Positions 7,886-63,237 of a stretch of DNA of 64,000 bases are shown here, piece after piece. Position numbers and translations under genes: made by a program. Numbering within the stretch: the first letter of the stretch is position 1; every line of letters begins with the position of its first letter. Source of the stretch: Prevotella sp. (GTDB lineage Bacteria; Bacteroidota; Bacteroidia; Bacteroidales; Bacteroidaceae); assembly GCA_022511065.1 (NCBI GenBank), contig JAFLSG010000002.1, forward strand, positions 1-64,000. Direction: 5' to 3'. The notes beneath the pieces were generated by a model. That model searched no databases. It saw nothing but the letters and a program-made list of their open reading frames with translations, and was not told where the DNA came from.

Positions 7886-7902
7886 ACTTCCATAATTTGT
7901 TG

Positions 7903-7976
7903 TGATCCGGTTGGGATTCGAACCCAAGACCTACTGCTTAGAAGGCAGTTGCTCTATCCAGCTGAGCTACCAGACC
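7903..7976 (-). tRNA. tRNA-Arg (anticodon TCT)
   Basis: The minus strand folds as a complete 74-nt cloverleaf: acceptor GGTCTGG/CCGGATC with two G-U pairs, D arm GCTC...GAGC, anticodon arm ACTGC-CTTCTAA-GCAGT giving anticodon TCT, T arm TTGGG-TTCGAAT-CCCAA and discriminator A; CCA is not encoded. It decodes AGA (Arg). The 3' end faces the accessory region at 1-7.9 kb, the side on which integrases usually insert elements. Confidence 0.96.
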
Positions 7977-32852: not shown

Positions 32853-33518
32853 TTAGTACCCCATAACCTTATCAACGATTTCATTAGAAAAACTTATTCT
32901 TAAGATATTGGGAGTATCGTCGTTCATTGCATTAAAAGTCCAATTCTTGCCGTTATTGGATGATACAGCCAACGTAAGATCTGGTGTAGTGTGAAGTTGG
33001 AGATTATCATTGACCATATTGGAAACAATCTCAAAGACATAAAAAATATTTTCTCCATACGTTACTTTTCTGATAAGTCGGCTAACCACAATGTTTATTT
33101 CTATGCCGTGATTTTCAAAGCGTTTTACTTGCTCAATTGCATGCATGGAAAACTCCTCAAACAGTTTACGCATAACTCCATCATTACTTTCGCCGGGATA
33201 ATATTCCTTGAAATACTTTGCTGCATCTGGGTATTGATAGTGAATGGCATTGTCTATGTCACCCCGTAAAAGAGCCAGATTATACGACCGAAACTGACTG
33301 AGCATGTTCTCTTCTTCTTTGTTATGTCCCTTACATTCCATAACTTTCCCCAAAGTAAAACCATCAGGAATCTTTTTGTCAGTTATGCACTCAATGACCT
33401 GTATAGAGTCGTTGAACTCCTCTACCATTACATCTGACTTCGTGTTTGCATTCCCACATCCAATGAGAAAAGGGAAGAGAATCGCCCAAATAAAGGCAAA
33501 GCATTTTACTGTTTTCAT
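32853..33518 (-). CDS. Lipoprotein of unknown function, first gene of the AT-rich operon
   Basis: 221 residues from the ATG at 33518 (an in-frame ATG at 33545 would add nine hydrophilic residues before the signal). MKTVKCFAFIWAILFPFLIGCGN is a lipoprotein signal with the Cys at the cleavage site. The body (residues 65-120, LLRGDIDNAIHYQYPDAAKYFKEYYPGESNDG) resembles in theme the YARHG lipoprotein at 59847 (both describe 'YPDA' after a helical pair), which may be distant homology. It lies directly downstream of a structured RNA (33585-33757) with a good promoter. Confidence 0.7.
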   Translation of the reverse strand: MKTVKCFAFIWAILFPFLIGCGNANTKSDVMVEEFNDSIQVIECITDKKIPDGFTLGKVMECKGHNKEEENMLSQFRSYNLALLRGDIDNAIHYQYPDAAKYFKEYYPGESNDGVMRKLFEEFSMHAIEQVKRFENHGIEINIVVSRLIRKVTYGENIFYVFEIVSNMVNDNLQLHTTPDLTLAVSSNNGKNWTFNAMNDDTPNILRISFSNEIVDKVMGY

Positions 33519-33584
33519 ATTCTGTTGGTTATTACTTCGCTTCATTTTAATGGTGAGTAAGCACCAACTTATACAAAGAAAGCG

Positions 33585-33757
33585 CAGACCCTAATCCATA
33601 CTCCTCTCAGGCCTTGCACTGCCTCATACATCCTATGGAAGGAACCTACGCTGTTGCGTATGCTCCACGGATGTATGAAATGCTCTTAATTCTTTTTCGA
33701 GGTGCAAGTTCGAGAGGAATCTGAGCAAATAAAATGTTTGTGCCCTATGAAAGGAAC
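33585..33757 (-). ncRNA. Structured RNA, possibly leader of the lipoprotein operon or 6S-like
   Basis: The minus-strand transcript folds into a rod. Paired segments are 33602-33608 with 33712-33718 (7 bp), 33614-33619 with 33702-33707 (6 bp), 33624-33633 with 33669-33678 (10 bp perfect) and 33647-33651 with 33656-33660 capped by a 4-nt loop. CAGA/TCTG (33585/33720) extends the base. A 23-nt A-rich bubble lies on the 5' side, against 4 nt on the 3' side. A perfectly spaced promoter starts it and the lipoprotein ATG lies 67 nt after its base. Size and bubble recall 6S RNA, but a cis-acting leader is equally possible. No coding frame is supported here. Confidence 0.65.
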
Positions 33758-33763
33758 ACGATG

Positions 33764-33843: not shown

Positions 33844-33998
33844 GTCATTTTAAGTTTGACTTGCTATTATATTCTGCGTGACCTACAGTCATTTTTCGTC
33901 CGACTTGCAGTCATATTTCAGTGAAAAATGATAGCAAGTCAAACAAAAAATAGCTTAAAGTCAAATGAAAAATGGCTGCAAGTCAAAGAGAAAATGAC
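33844..33998. repeat. 155-bp mirror-symmetric array of six 22-bp sites
   Basis: Three sites of the form ATGAnnGCAAGTCAAACnAAAA read rightward with their GTC cores centred at 33939, 33961 and 33983. Three read leftward with cores at 33859, 33881 and 33903. The spacing is exactly 22 bp within each half and the two halves mirror each other about 33921. The ends are GTCAT (33844) and ATGAC (33994). The arrangement resembles iterons or a repressor/nucleoid-protein array. The rest of 33546-34251 holds the structured RNA, its promoter, a GC-alternating tract (TGCGCGTGCGTATGTGCGCG, 34002-34022) and the promoter at 34133. Confidence 0.85.
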
Positions 33999-38089: not shown

Positions 38090-38451
38090 GAAAGCATCTG
38101 CCACGGTCTGTCGCTGGTGTCTTTACGGCACGAGAGGAAAGTCCGGGCAGCACAGGGCGCTCCACTTCCGAAAGTAGAAGCTATTGGTGACAGTAGGTGA
38201 GGGCAGAAGAGAACGACCGCCCGCAAGGGCAAGGGTGAGAAGGTGGTGTAAGAGACCACCAGCCAATGGGTGATCATTGGGCTGTGCCTGCTGGAGGCTG
38301 CAAGTCCGCATATACCATCGTCTGAGGGTTGCCCGTCCGAGTAAACGATGGAGGGTAGGACGCTTGAGCCGCAGGGTGACCTGCGGTGTAGATAAATGAC
38401 AGACACCACATCATTGTGGTACAGAACCCGGCTTACAGGGGCAGTGCTTTC
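38090..38451 (+). ncRNA. rnpB: RNase P RNA (class A)
   Basis: Contains the universal cores GAGGAAAGTCCGGGC (P4 5' side, near 38131) and ACAGAACCCGGCTTA (P4 3' side, near 38421). P1 is formed by GAAAGCA-CTGCC at 38090 and GGCAG-GCTTTC ending at 38451. A T-run (38452-38457) directly follows and serves as terminator. The length of about 360 nt fits the bacterial A type. Catalyses 5' maturation of tRNA. Confidence 0.96.
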
Positions 38452-59846: not shown

Positions 59847-60950
59847 TTATTCATGCTTCTTGATAAACTCAATATTGTATTTCTCTATATCAGACATATT
59901 CTTATATACCGCAGCAGCATCGCTGTTTGCGGGGGTGTACCATGAATATTTAGAGAAATAGTCTGTCAGGTCGTTTCTCTTAAACTTATATCCATATTTT
60001 GCATAAATCATGTTTCGCATGATTTCCAAATCTTTTTTCGATACACCCTCCAAGTCTGCCTCTGTGAGTTTTTTGTCAGAAAGAGAGTTGTTGTAGCTTT
60101 GCTCCTCTTCCCCGGAGCTTGTCCATTCTTTGAATCCATTATATTCATTTCCAGAAAAGGAGCCATATCTGGAAAGCATCGCAGCCTGTGACATGTTCTT
60201 GAAATGGAACTGAACAACCCAGGTCAAATTGCGTTGAGAAGCATAATAATACAGTTCGTCTTTCCAAATGGTGAACACGTGGGTTTCGTCTGGTGCTAAA
60301 TCAACACCCTTTTGAACCGAAGTTCCCTTGCGCTCCCCTGTGTCTGTTACGCCAAAAATGAACTCTACGGAATACTCATCGCCTTTGACCATGCTTCTTC
60401 CGTTGTTTGTGACAGGTTGGTCAATCTGTACCGTAGAGTAATTGCGCCAACTATACATTCCGTCATGCGAGTGCAAATTGCCATTAGCAGACTCCGGGCA
60501 ACATCTTCCAAGATACGTGATGTACTCGCTGTCATCGCGGAATAATTGTCCTTTTGTGATATCCGATAATTGGTTTACTGGTGTTCCAGTCTTTGCTGCC
60601 AGTTCATAAGAAGCAGAGTCAAGCTGCAGCACGTTATAGGAGTCGGTAATTGTTGCCGCTCCTTCCTCTGACAGTTTCACGACAAGTTTTCTTTTGGCAT
60701 CTAAGTTTGCCACATATATGCCGTCGTTATCAGCTTCGACCTTAATATCTACCTCGGCAACTTCTTTAATCGGCAGTAAGTTTGTGTAAGTCCGGGCATC
60801 GGGGTACAACTCATACATTGTCACCTTGTCGTTGTTGGCGAGAGCCTGTAAGAACTCTTGGGCAGCATCAGCAACTTTACTTTTGTTTGCATCACACGAA
60901 ACCAATGCCATGCAAATGCACAGACAATAAATTCTGCTAATTGTTTTCAT
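59847..60950 (-). CDS. Lipoprotein with C-terminal YARHG domain
   Basis: 367 residues. Lipoprotein signal MKTISRIYCLCICMALVSCDANK, a helical and then beta-rich middle (residues 20-270), and at the end a YARHG domain: LTEADLEGVSKKDLEIMRNMIYAKYGYKF ... FSKYSWYTP. YARHG domains occur in exported bacterial proteins and are thought to bind cell-surface or peptidoglycan material. Start at 60950 chosen as the signal start; 60956 adds two residues. A structured RNA lies directly upstream. Confidence 0.8.
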   Translation of the reverse strand: MKTISRIYCLCICMALVSCDANKSKVADAAQEFLQALANNDKVTMYELYPDARTYTNLLPIKEVAEVDIKVEADNDGIYVANLDAKRKLVVKLSEEGAATITDSYNVLQLDSASYELAAKTGTPVNQLSDITKGQLFRDDSEYITYLGRCCPESANGNLHSHDGMYSWRNYSTVQIDQPVTNNGRSMVKGDEYSVEFIFGVTDTGERKGTSVQKGVDLAPDETHVFTIWKDELYYYASQRNLTWVVQFHFKNMSQAAMLSRYGSFSGNEYNGFKEWTSSGEEEQSYNNSLSDKKLTEADLEGVSKKDLEIMRNMIYAKYGYKFKRNDLTDYFSKYSWYTPANSDAAAVYKNMSDIEKYNIEFIKKHE

Positions 60951-61020
60951 AATCAAATCATGTTACATTAATAAGTTGGTTTTTAATTGTTCCTTCATTC
61001 TATTTTGTAAGGGACAAAGA

Positions 61021-61264
61021 GTGTGAGCCTTCTTGACATTCTCAGTCTGAAGGTCCTGGAATACCCGTACAAGTAAGAATGAAATCAGCTCACACCTGCA
61101 GGTATATATGTGAGCCGACTCCATTACGGAATGGGCTGTATATATGCTACTGCAGGAGGAACGGCTTTCAAACTTTTCACCCTTGTACTTTGAATTTTCC
61201 AGGTTCTCAGACGGGTCAAAGCTGAACAGCTTTCCTCGATGTCGTGGTTTTTTATGAAACCACG
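61021..61264 (-). ncRNA. Structured RNA upstream of the YARHG lipoprotein operon
   Basis: Minus-strand transcript. Two 5' hairpins: CGTGGTTT/AAACCACG (61243-61250, 61257-61264) and AAAGCT/AGCTTT (61218-61223, 61228-61233). Nested long-range stems: 61197-61203 with 61055-61061 (7 bp) and 61182-61188 with 61067-61073 (7 bp). Inside: 61150-61156 with 61095-61101 (7 bp), capped by 61121-61125 with 61130-61134. At the 3' end GTGTGAGC (61021-61028) pairs with GCTCACAC (61088-61095), which can instead pair with 61109-61115, giving two exclusive folds. Topology resembles 33585-33757. The long open frame here has no coding character. Confidence 0.65.
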
Positions 61265-61267
61265 GCA

Positions 61268-61275
61268 CAAAGATA
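61268..61275 (-). promoter_or_regulatory. -7 element of the structured RNA / YARHG operon promoter
   Basis: TATCTTTG on the minus strand, 4 nt before the first paired base of the RNA. A clear -33 TTTG is not seen. Confidence 0.6.
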
Positions 61276-61390
61276 AACCATTTTTCTAAAATCCGTTCCA
61301 TTGTGAGCTGATTTTTTCTTTCAGGCGCAAAAATAATTCCTTTTTATAGAATCGGCTTGTTCCATTTTAGTCCATTTTGAAAATAATTTG

Positions 61391-61398
61391 TATCTTTG
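61391..61398 (+). promoter_or_regulatory. -7 promoter element directly before the kinase ATG
   Basis: TATCTTTG ends 8 nt before ATG 61407, so the transcript would have a leader of only a few nt or none. A TTTTAG at 61365-61370 is the best -33 candidate. Confidence 0.65.
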
Positions 61399-61406
61399 CC
61401 GTCAAG

Positions 61407-62708
61407 ATGACAGCCAACTACGACAGTTCTGCCTCCGGCTATGTGACGGAGGACTTCGAGGGAATCACCCGGACATTTACCGATATGGAGATACTACACA
61501 CATCGGAGGTGAACATCGTGGCGAAAGGAAAGCGCTACGGTCGTTGGTGGCTGCTGAAAGGTCTTCGGCAAGAGGTGGCGGGCGATGCCGGTTACAAGCA
61601 ACGGCTACGCAAGGAACTGGAAATCCTGATGCAGCTACAGCATCCGAACATCGTGAGTGCGGTGGGCATGGAGCCTGTCGATGGCTTGGGGGAGTGCATC
61701 GTGATGGAGTTCGTGGATGGCACGACGCTGAAGGAATGGCTGCGCGGCACTACGACGCGACGGCAGAGGAGAAAGGTGGCGTGGGAACTGACGGAGGCTG
61801 TGGGCTATGCGCACGCAAAAGGCATCGTGCATCGCGACTTGAAACCAAGCAACATACTGATAACGGTGAATGGCGAGAATGTGAAGCTGCTGGACTTTGG
61901 ACTGGCAGATGCAGACAGCTATGCCATTCTGAAACAGCCTGCCGGCACACTCCGCTATATCTCGCCCGAACAAGCGCAGACGGCGGTTGCGGATGTACGT
62001 AACGATATCTATAGTCTTGGTGTCGTACTGGGTGAGATGAGGTTAGGCTATGGGCGCATCGTGAAGAAATGCCTGTTGCCATTGGAAAAGCGGTATCGCA
62101 ACGTGGCGGAACTGCAAGGGGCGATGCGGGCGCAAGACAGATGGCGGGTTCGGATGGCTGTTGCTGCCGTCGCACTATGTGTGATTCTGTTGGCGGGGCT
62201 TGTCGGCATACAAACCATGCGACTGCGTGACTTTGCATCGCAAGCGACGGAAAACCGTACAGAGCAGGAGCGGCTGAATGCTACCGTCACCTTATTGACC
62301 GACAGCCTCGACCGCATGTCTGCACTCCATCATCAACTGGCGAATGACCAGGAACAGCTGAAAGATGAACAAGAGCAGCAATTATTGAAAAGGCTGCGGG
62401 TGGAAGAGGCCGTCAGCAAGGGCAAGGCGGAAATAGACCGAGTCATCAAAGACTTGGGATTGAAGCAACACTTTGACACACTTTCAAACTTTGTATATCT
62501 GGATGATGAATTGCTGACGGATTTGACGGATGCGTATGAGATTAGTAAGGCATTTGTTGAGCGGATTGAACCGGATTATACAGAGCGTGAGCTTTCGGAA
62601 ATCAGCAACCGGCTCACCGATTATTATAGTAAGTGTGCGAAATACTATCTCAATCGTTACAACCAAATGAAAGCAGAGTATGACAGAAAAATTATGCAGA
62701 GAGATTGA
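61407..62708 (+). CDS. Transmembrane Hanks-type Ser/Thr protein kinase
   Basis: 433 residues. Kinase domain: Lys51 in WWLLKGLRQ (ATP), Glu in a long alpha-C region, VHRDLKPSN with catalytic D144, LLDFGLAD with DFG at 163-165, GTLRYISPEQ and DIYSLGVVLGE. One membrane span (AVAAVALCVILLAGLVG, about 250) is followed by an extracytoplasmic coiled coil rich in Gln/Glu/Leu. The glycine loop is reduced (AKGKRYG). A longer in-frame start at 61377 is rejected since the promoter lies inside it. Overlaps the next gene by 29 nt. Confidence 0.92.
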   Translation: MTANYDSSASGYVTEDFEGITRTFTDMEILHTSEVNIVAKGKRYGRWWLLKGLRQEVAGDAGYKQRLRKELEILMQLQHPNIVSAVGMEPVDGLGECIVMEFVDGTTLKEWLRGTTTRRQRRKVAWELTEAVGYAHAKGIVHRDLKPSNILITVNGENVKLLDFGLADADSYAILKQPAGTLRYISPEQAQTAVADVRNDIYSLGVVLGEMRLGYGRIVKKCLLPLEKRYRNVAELQGAMRAQDRWRVRMAVAAVALCVILLAGLVGIQTMRLRDFASQATENRTEQERLNATVTLLTDSLDRMSALHHQLANDQEQLKDEQEQQLLKRLRVEEAVSKGKAEIDRVIKDLGLKQHFDTLSNFVYLDDELLTDLTDAYEISKAFVERIEPDYTERELSEISNRLTDYYSKCAKYYLNRYNQMKAEYDRKIMQRD

Positions 62709-63237
62709 GGAGGCCCTGTGCCGGAAGATAAAAACACCCAAGGATTTCGAGTATCTGCGTGAGCGAATCTTCGCCCGCCGTCACTTGTTGGTGAGTGCCA
62801 CCACGCTGAAACGGGTGTGGGGCTATCTTGACGATGGTGTGCAGCCGCGCATGGCCACGCTTGACATTCTGGCGCAGTTTCTCGGTTATCGGGACTATGA
62901 GGAGTATAGCCGTAGCGGGCAGACATCGGAAGAGGAATTGCCGAGCAACCCAATGATGGGCAGGAGGTTGAGCGTTGGAGAGGAACTGAGCCGTGGCGAC
63001 CGCCTGCGCCTGACTTGGCTGCCTGACAGGGTGTGCGATGTGGAATATTTAGGCGATTTGAATTTCCGCGTGATTGCCTCTGAAAACACCCGTCTGCGCA
63101 AAGATAACACATTCCAATGCAGCCTTATCGTGGAGGGAGAGCCTTTGTTTCTCGACAATCTGCGACAAGATGACCGCCCGCCCGTTGCCTATGTCTGTGG
63201 AAAGCGCACGGGAGTGGCGTTTGAAAATCTAATATAG
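62680..63237 (+). CDS. Conserved Bacteroidetes protein, partner of the kinase
   Basis: 185 residues. The N-terminal 80 residues are a helix-turn-helix-like domain (SATTLKRVWGYLDDG, RMATLDILAQFLGYRDYEEYSR), common in Bacteroidetes regulators; the C-terminal half is beta-rich (GDRLRLTWLPDRVCDVEYLGDLNFRVI). It overlaps the kinase gene by 29 nt, so the two are probably made together, and the protein may be a substrate or output regulator of the kinase. That link is inference from position. Confidence 0.75.
   Translation: MTEKLCREIEEALCRKIKTPKDFEYLRERIFARRHLLVSATTLKRVWGYLDDGVQPRMATLDILAQFLGYRDYEEYSRSGQTSEEELPSNPMMGRRLSVGEELSRGDRLRLTWLPDRVCDVEYLGDLNFRVIASENTRLRKDNTFQCSLIVEGEPLFLDNLRQDDRPPVAYVCGKRTGVAFENLI

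Follow-up and report, generated by a model that had tools for sequence, protein, structure and literature searches.

Near one end of the window, the 64,000-nucleotide stretch of Prevotella sp. DNA analyzed here, a lipoprotein gene is preceded by a segment that a sequence-only reading had proposed to encode a structured RNA capable of two exclusive folds. This locus raises the question of whether such an RNA is conserved, from which strand it would be read, and whether alternative folding could control the gene that follows.

A leader RNA ahead of a lipoprotein gene

The sequence-only reading gave no strand; the RNA feature maps to the minus strand. Its 5' end was inferred from a -7 promoter element, and its 3' end was set where conservation stops. 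The features of the locus are as follows:

61268-61275, minus strand: -7 promoter element TATCTTTG, Bacteroidetes-type, identified by sequence
61014-61264, minus strand: leader RNA, 251 nt
61243-61264, minus strand: P1, the 5' hairpin CGUGGUUU..AAACCACG, with two-sided changes in 7 of 8 pairs
61218-61233, minus strand: H2, an alternative 5' hairpin AAAGCU..AGCUUU, supported by pairing counts (AAAGCGU..GCUUU in distant members)
61197-61212, minus strand: left strands of P2 and P3 (GUCUGA.., CUGGAA) with a conserved unpaired AA, a candidate sensor core
61140-61178, minus strand: left arm at the apex of the rod, the switching strand's first partner, with the A-rich bubble GAAAAGUUUGAAAGC inside
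61075-61096, minus strand: switching strand GGUGUGAGCUGAUUUCAUUCUU, nearly invariant within the genus
61045-61061, minus strand: right strands of P3 and P2 (UUCCAG..CUUCAGAC) with a conserved CC
61014-61043, minus strand: 3' strand GAGAAUGUCAAGAAGGCUCACACUCUUUGU, the switching strand's second partner, U-rich at its end; terminator-like hairpin
59847-60947, minus strand: downstream lipoprotein gene, an open reading frame with a YARHG domain (PF13308, E 5e-19)

On the minus strand, a hairpin comes after TATCTTTG, then the long rod and finally GGCUCACACUCUUUGU, whose end at 61014 lies 66 nt ahead of the start codon (ATG, 60947) of the lipoprotein gene. The window RNA was confirmed to have the A-rich 5' bubble GAAAAGTTTGAAAGC, and the original description of a structured RNA with its own -7 element and an A-rich bubble before a lipoprotein gene held. 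The conserved block takes in the upstream DNA box of one subtype; it covers ~61014-61317 and is slightly wider than the 61021-61264 first proposed. The promoter motif TAnnTTTG is present in 60 of 67 Prevotella relatives and in 32 of 51 distant relatives, where 5.4 would be expected; no second TAnnTTTG was found between the rod and the lipoprotein gene at the window locus. That the RNA has a promoter of its own is shown by these computations.

Conservation within the genus and choice of strand

Of 398 same-genus genomes, 72 contain homologues by DNA search. An exact pattern scan returned 64 named loci, nearly all from Prevotella/Prevotellaceae and mostly from the rumen; the few others (e.g. Treponema, Tenacibaculum) are chance matches without the remaining RNA. 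Alignment of 67 elements, trimmed to 47, yielded a consensus of 86 pairs in which 91.9% of cells are paired, compared with 35-45% when the partner is slid. Within the rod, 35 pairs have changed on both sides, giving 247 two-sided cells as opposed to 80 in shuffles, and the rod is thereby shown computationally. A first covariance model, R1, matches the window RNA at 61014-61266 with 282.6 bits.

Folding of the minus strand alone gave -82.7 against -58.7 ± 5.0 for dinucleotide shuffles, all 200 of which it beats (z -4.8). The opposite strand, folded alone, does almost as well (z -4.7) because the rod is almost palindromic, and R1 scores it at 49 bits. The consensus energy of the aligned family is -115.7 kcal/mol for the minus strand and -106.4 kcal/mol for the opposite one, while 20 column-shuffled alignments average -41.3 ± 3.8 kcal/mol. 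An RNA read from the opposite strand was rejected, since promoter, gene orientation and consensus energy all pick the minus strand. Also rejected was a coding sequence or leader peptide: one-base length differences (UUUCAUUC / UUUUCAUUC) occur inside conserved stretches and leave no frame intact. A conserved short reading frame, the criterion for a leader-peptide attenuator, was not met in the aligned Prevotella elements, and conservation of the 3' strand accounts for what looked like a conserved start (MSRRLTLF) at the 3' end.

Relatives beyond the genus

R1 gave weaker matches in other Bacteroidales families. These distant members, compared by eye and folded singly, have a common layout in which an AAAGCGU..AGCUUU hairpin is followed by P2, AAUCUGGAAAAUU lies opposite GGGUAUUCCAGAACCU, the apex is formed by GCUCACGC/GCGUGGGC, and the 3' end consists of CCCACGC and then UUUUUU. 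A second covariance model, R2, was built from 14 non-Prevotella members only and recovered the window RNA independently, at 61015-61215 with 63.9 bits and an E-value of 2e-11 in 64 kb (R2 E-values are rough, the calibration having been shortened). R2 matches occur in 131 of 150 same-genus genomes (87%), with up to 14 copies each, in 109 of 295 Bacteroidales genomes, and in 18 of 198 genomes across the phylum; searches of one Tenacibaculum and one Treponema genome gave no match. The cultured carrier Hoylesella loescheii An865 has three. Among 52 distinct matches the rod contains 526 two-sided cells, compared with 167 after shuffling, spread over 42 of 49 pairs; this alignment was fitted to the rod and hence is biased toward it. 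A single stringent exact pattern, run against viral contigs as a weak test for a virus-borne element, found no match.

The home genome contains four clear copies besides the one at 33 kb described below. Three of them lie outside the window (genome G000, contig C44 20759-20904, contig C25 26978-27174 and contig C1 1758-1939) and stand before genes for one secreted protein, one unknown protein and one lipoprotein. Tandem copies before one gene were seen in the sequence of loci L109/L136, L115/L148 and L124, and in L109/L136 the second copy is also scored by the model.

Two mutually exclusive pairings

In the window RNA, GCUCACAC can pair either with the internal GUGUGAGC, forming 8 contiguous base pairs, or with the 5' GAGG.A.AGC strand, and the GCUCACAC/GUGUGAGC pairing is standard in 46-47 of 47 relatives. 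In the genus alignment, pairing of the 3' GGCUCACAC to the internal GUGUGAGCU is possible in 46-47 of 47 sequences; a competing hairpin, CCUUC/GAAGG, contains a two-sided change. The 5' strand of H2 likewise has two roles, as it also joins the 3' strand in the closing helix.

Coevolution was assessed by a permutation in which strands were dealt among sequences. Duplexes between a switching strand and the 3' strand of the same sequence average -19.9 kcal/mol, compared with -15.1 ± 0.45 kcal/mol for permuted pairs; with the left arm of the same sequence the values are -17.8 and -14.0 ± 0.40 kcal/mol, and in neither case did any of 10,000 permutations reach the observed mean. Rows at least 85% alike were dropped, which does not fully remove relatedness. 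Since the 3' strand is unpaired in the R2 model, this is a fair test of the second pairing, and single columns of the 3' pairing contain compensatory changes (at one pair, CG in 17 and UA in 3). The family has a mean of 5.4 U within the last 8 nt. Measured against the form of an intrinsic terminator, a stable stem with a U-tract after it, distant members display a clear CCCACGC-UUUUUU; the U-tract of the window RNA, UCUUUGU, is weak. For the window RNA the rod was computed at -86.0 kcal/mol and the terminator-like alternative at -81.5 kcal/mol, and across members the rod is usually favored, by a median of 13.9 kcal/mol.

Given coevolution of the switching strand with its two partners, left arm and 3' strand, these computations show that both exclusive folds, the rod and the terminator-like hairpin, are conserved under selection. 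The folds are treated as exclusive because a pseudoknot that retains P2-P4 while the 3' strand pairs was judged sterically impossible, its connecting loop being too short; this rests on reasoning without computation. Three criteria for a riboswitch are met: location in an mRNA 5' leader, a conserved core flanked by covarying helices, and two mutually exclusive pairings.

The window holds a second RNA of this kind:

33574-33760, minus strand: second, divergent member, preceding a lipoprotein gene at 32853-33545

When R2 was run on the window at E-values up to 10, the single additional match was to this RNA (33576-33720, 24.2 bits, E 0.005); the score is weak but repeatable, and relatives of the 33 kb RNA score 21-27 bits. 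Dual pairing was also seen in it and in three of its relatives, and together these results support its assignment as a divergent member of the same architecture as the 61 kb leader. The sequence-only reading had held that the two window RNAs are alike in topology and that a two-state switch is possible. Both claims stood: R2 scores the RNAs at 63.9 and, weakly, 24.2 bits with dual pairing in each, and the switching strand coevolves with both partners. The outcome that would have refuted it, one RNA proving to be 6S RNA and the other lacking covariation or homologues, was not met. Upstream of the 33 kb RNA, at 33869-33995, lies a long AT-rich imperfect inverted repeat of TGACTTGC/CATTTTTC units, which yields spurious microRNA-family matches.

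Genes downstream of the leader

The leader position is likewise shown by computation. The next gene shares the strand of the leader at 62 of the 66 loci from Prevotella and 48 of the 49 distant ones (110 of 115 in total), a near-uniform orientation that contrasts with that of upstream genes, which in the distant set divide 33 to 14 by strand. The distance from leader to gene is usually 20-130 nt, with start codons ranging from 20 to 400 nt. First downstream genes are diverse, encoding BspA-type LRR proteins in 12 of 62 cases and also GIY-YIG, CD225, SRA and other proteins. The proposed tie to lipoprotein/YARHG operons was not supported; YARHG occurs in only 1 of 62 first downstream genes. By a simple signal-peptide rule, 50 of 100 downstream genes encode exported proteins, compared with 8 of 88 upstream genes; the leader is not specific to lipoproteins, though exported proteins are in clear excess among its diverse targets.

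Several downstream genes appeared TerB-like by eye, without Pfam support. In some genomes the leader RNA and an Rfam DUF805 RNA (RF03081) form a composite leader, the latter lying just downstream of the former and before the gene (L106/L132 1388-1456, L134 1682-1747, L141 704-773 and L154 1772-1837). The window also contains an ordinary class A RNase P RNA (38094-38451) and a tRNA-Arg (7902-7976).

An upstream box linked to a kinase and its partner

Three further features lie upstream of the leader:

61300-61314, minus strand: DNA box AAATCAGCTCACAAT that precedes the promoter and is complementary to the switching strand, found by alignment in one Prevotella subtype only
61407-62708, plus strand: divergent gene for a Hanks-type Ser/Thr protein kinase (PF00069, E 1.8e-35)
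62680-63237, plus strand: gene for the H protein, a conserved kinase partner without a Pfam match

Occurrence of the box is associated with a Hanks-type kinase gene, an H protein gene or both nearby (31 of 36, compared with 2 of 15; p 1.5e-6, uncorrected for relatedness), and the base R of the box covaries with the switching-strand base Y at one position (p 1e-4). Only two genes of the home genome score above the Pkinase cut-off, including the one at this locus. The AlphaFold model of the H protein (pLDDT 88) is helical in its N-terminal half and beta in its C-terminal half; comparison of this fold with the PDB gave no significant match, the best hits (E 0.14 and worse) including several Sm/LSm proteins. 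We infer that the kinase/H-linked box probably adds control of initiation in one Prevotella subtype. Regulation of the box by the H protein is a possibility for which there are no binding data, binding being untested.

Proposed mechanism

Although no experiment has been done, we think it likely that the RNA forms the 5' leader of the mRNA for the lipoprotein, acting as a transcription attenuator of the riboswitch or protein-responsive type. Attenuation is indicated by the shared switching strand, the 3' strand copying the left arm, and the U-tract. In the proposed sequence of events, RNA polymerase would start at ~61264 and make the 5' hairpin and then the long rod. Were the switching strand (61075-61096) kept by the left arm, the rod would persist and transcription would read through into the gene; were it taken by the 3' strand (61014-61043), a terminator-like hairpin with a U-rich tail would form, causing a premature stop. 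Around P3, the unpaired AA and CC and the UU.GG wobbles rank with the best-conserved positions of the whole family. These internal loops (AA/CC, tandem UU.GG) exist only in the rod, and binding there should therefore lock read-through; they may constitute a sensor, with the gene ON when the signal is present. Many envelope and other genes would answer to one common signal. Actual termination by the second fold, the ON/OFF polarity, the sensor role, the identity of what is sensed and the shared signal are all inferred, without experiment. No ligand can be suggested because the targets share no metabolic pathway.

Several observations speak against attenuation. The window U-tract (UCUUUGU) is weak, the terminator loop is long (~35 nt), and the rod is computed to be more stable in most members, so that what would favor termination is unclear.

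A bolder reading, which we hold only tentatively and judge a little more apt to be wrong than right, is that the leaders form an unrecognized, phylum-wide riboswitch or protein-sensing class of the Bacteroidota, in which strand-exchange termination would let one global signal switch a large number of unrelated operons, for envelope, adhesion and other functions; a genome has up to 14 copies, at times in tandem. Present in 87% of the sampled same-genus genomes and over a third of the sampled Bacteroidales genomes, the leader would be among the commonest of its kind in the phylum, although none of the RNA libraries searched contains it. It unites scattered genes (for BspA-type surface adhesins, lipoproteins and others) into a candidate regulon with a testable switch, gives a concrete search for its signal, and would allow leaders and regulated genes to be annotated in Bacteroidota of the gut and rumen.

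Alternative explanations

A free-standing small RNA gene, with the rod as mature RNA, the second fold as no more than its terminator, and leakage as the only source of downstream transcription, would account for the promoter, the U-tract end, and the ability of the 5' and 3' ends to pair into a closed rod. We consider it unlikely: in 110 of 115 loci a gene of the same orientation follows closely, whereas upstream genes divide 33 to 14 in the distant set; the RNA is multi-copy beside different genes; and no second TAnnTTTG precedes the window lipoprotein gene.

Equally improbable is a leader that governs mRNA stability or processing (e.g. as a site for a double-strand-cutting RNase) or translation, without termination. 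The very long rod, the leader position and the weak U-tract of the Prevotella subtype are in its favor, but it predicts neither the coevolution of 3' strand and switching strand nor the U-tract, and distances to start codons vary from 20 to 400 nt.

A mobile or repeated DNA element (REP/MITE/attC-like), with the hairpin acting as DNA, would explain the multi-copy, patchy distribution, the sharp boundaries and the tandems in some genomes. It is very improbable given the fixed orientation to genes, the promoter, the preference of the consensus energy for one strand, the conserved UU.GG wobbles, and the strong divergence of copies from one another.

Invertible promoters are known in Bacteroidales phase variation, and the upstream box and switching strand could constitute a 12-bp inverted repeat for one, being complementary and covarying at one position (p 1e-4); this explanation can be virtually set aside, as the inverted junction occurs in 0 of 398 same-genus genomes and many members keep the switching strand without the box. 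A divergent 6S RNA, suggested by the long closed rod with an A-rich bubble, is as good as eliminated by the absence of a match even at a relaxed threshold, the leader position, and the presence of up to 14 copies per genome, 6S RNA normally having one or two genes per genome; the Rfam 6S model finds nothing anywhere in the home genome, which limits the power of that search.

Comparison with known systems

None of the Rfam 15 families matches the window leader above its gathering cut-off, and a relaxed search of 60950-61400 gave chance-level hits only; one distant member matched only AfaR, at 31.6 bits against a cut-off of 100. No description of the family was found in the literature searched, which excluded closed-access articles and supplements, so an earlier description under another name is possible. 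As far as the literature and Rfam were searched, the family is apparently undescribed, and the suggestion of an undescribed regulatory RNA class held to that extent.

Flavo-1, Bacteroidales-1 and Bacteroides-1 are candidate structured RNAs of the same phylum (Weinberg 2010, PMC2864571), and neither the window nor the scanned distant members match them at Rfam gathering scores. The DUF805 RNA (RF03081) is likewise a cis-regulatory motif of Bacteroidota, but is a separate 68-nt motif that does not overlap the rod and is absent at the window locus. With 6S RNA (RF00013) the leader shares a long rod with a bubble, but it is unmatched by that family, multi-copy and located before genes. Terminating riboswitches and attenuators differ from the leader RNA in that the latter has no known ligand or regulator, a very long rod, targets without a common pathway, and no family match; membership among riboswitches cannot be claimed without a ligand. 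In its working, however, the leader is riboswitch- or attenuator-like, and it has in common with these systems the 5' leader position, a conserved core, one strand common to two exclusive helices, and a U-tract terminator shape, clear in distant members and weak at the window locus.
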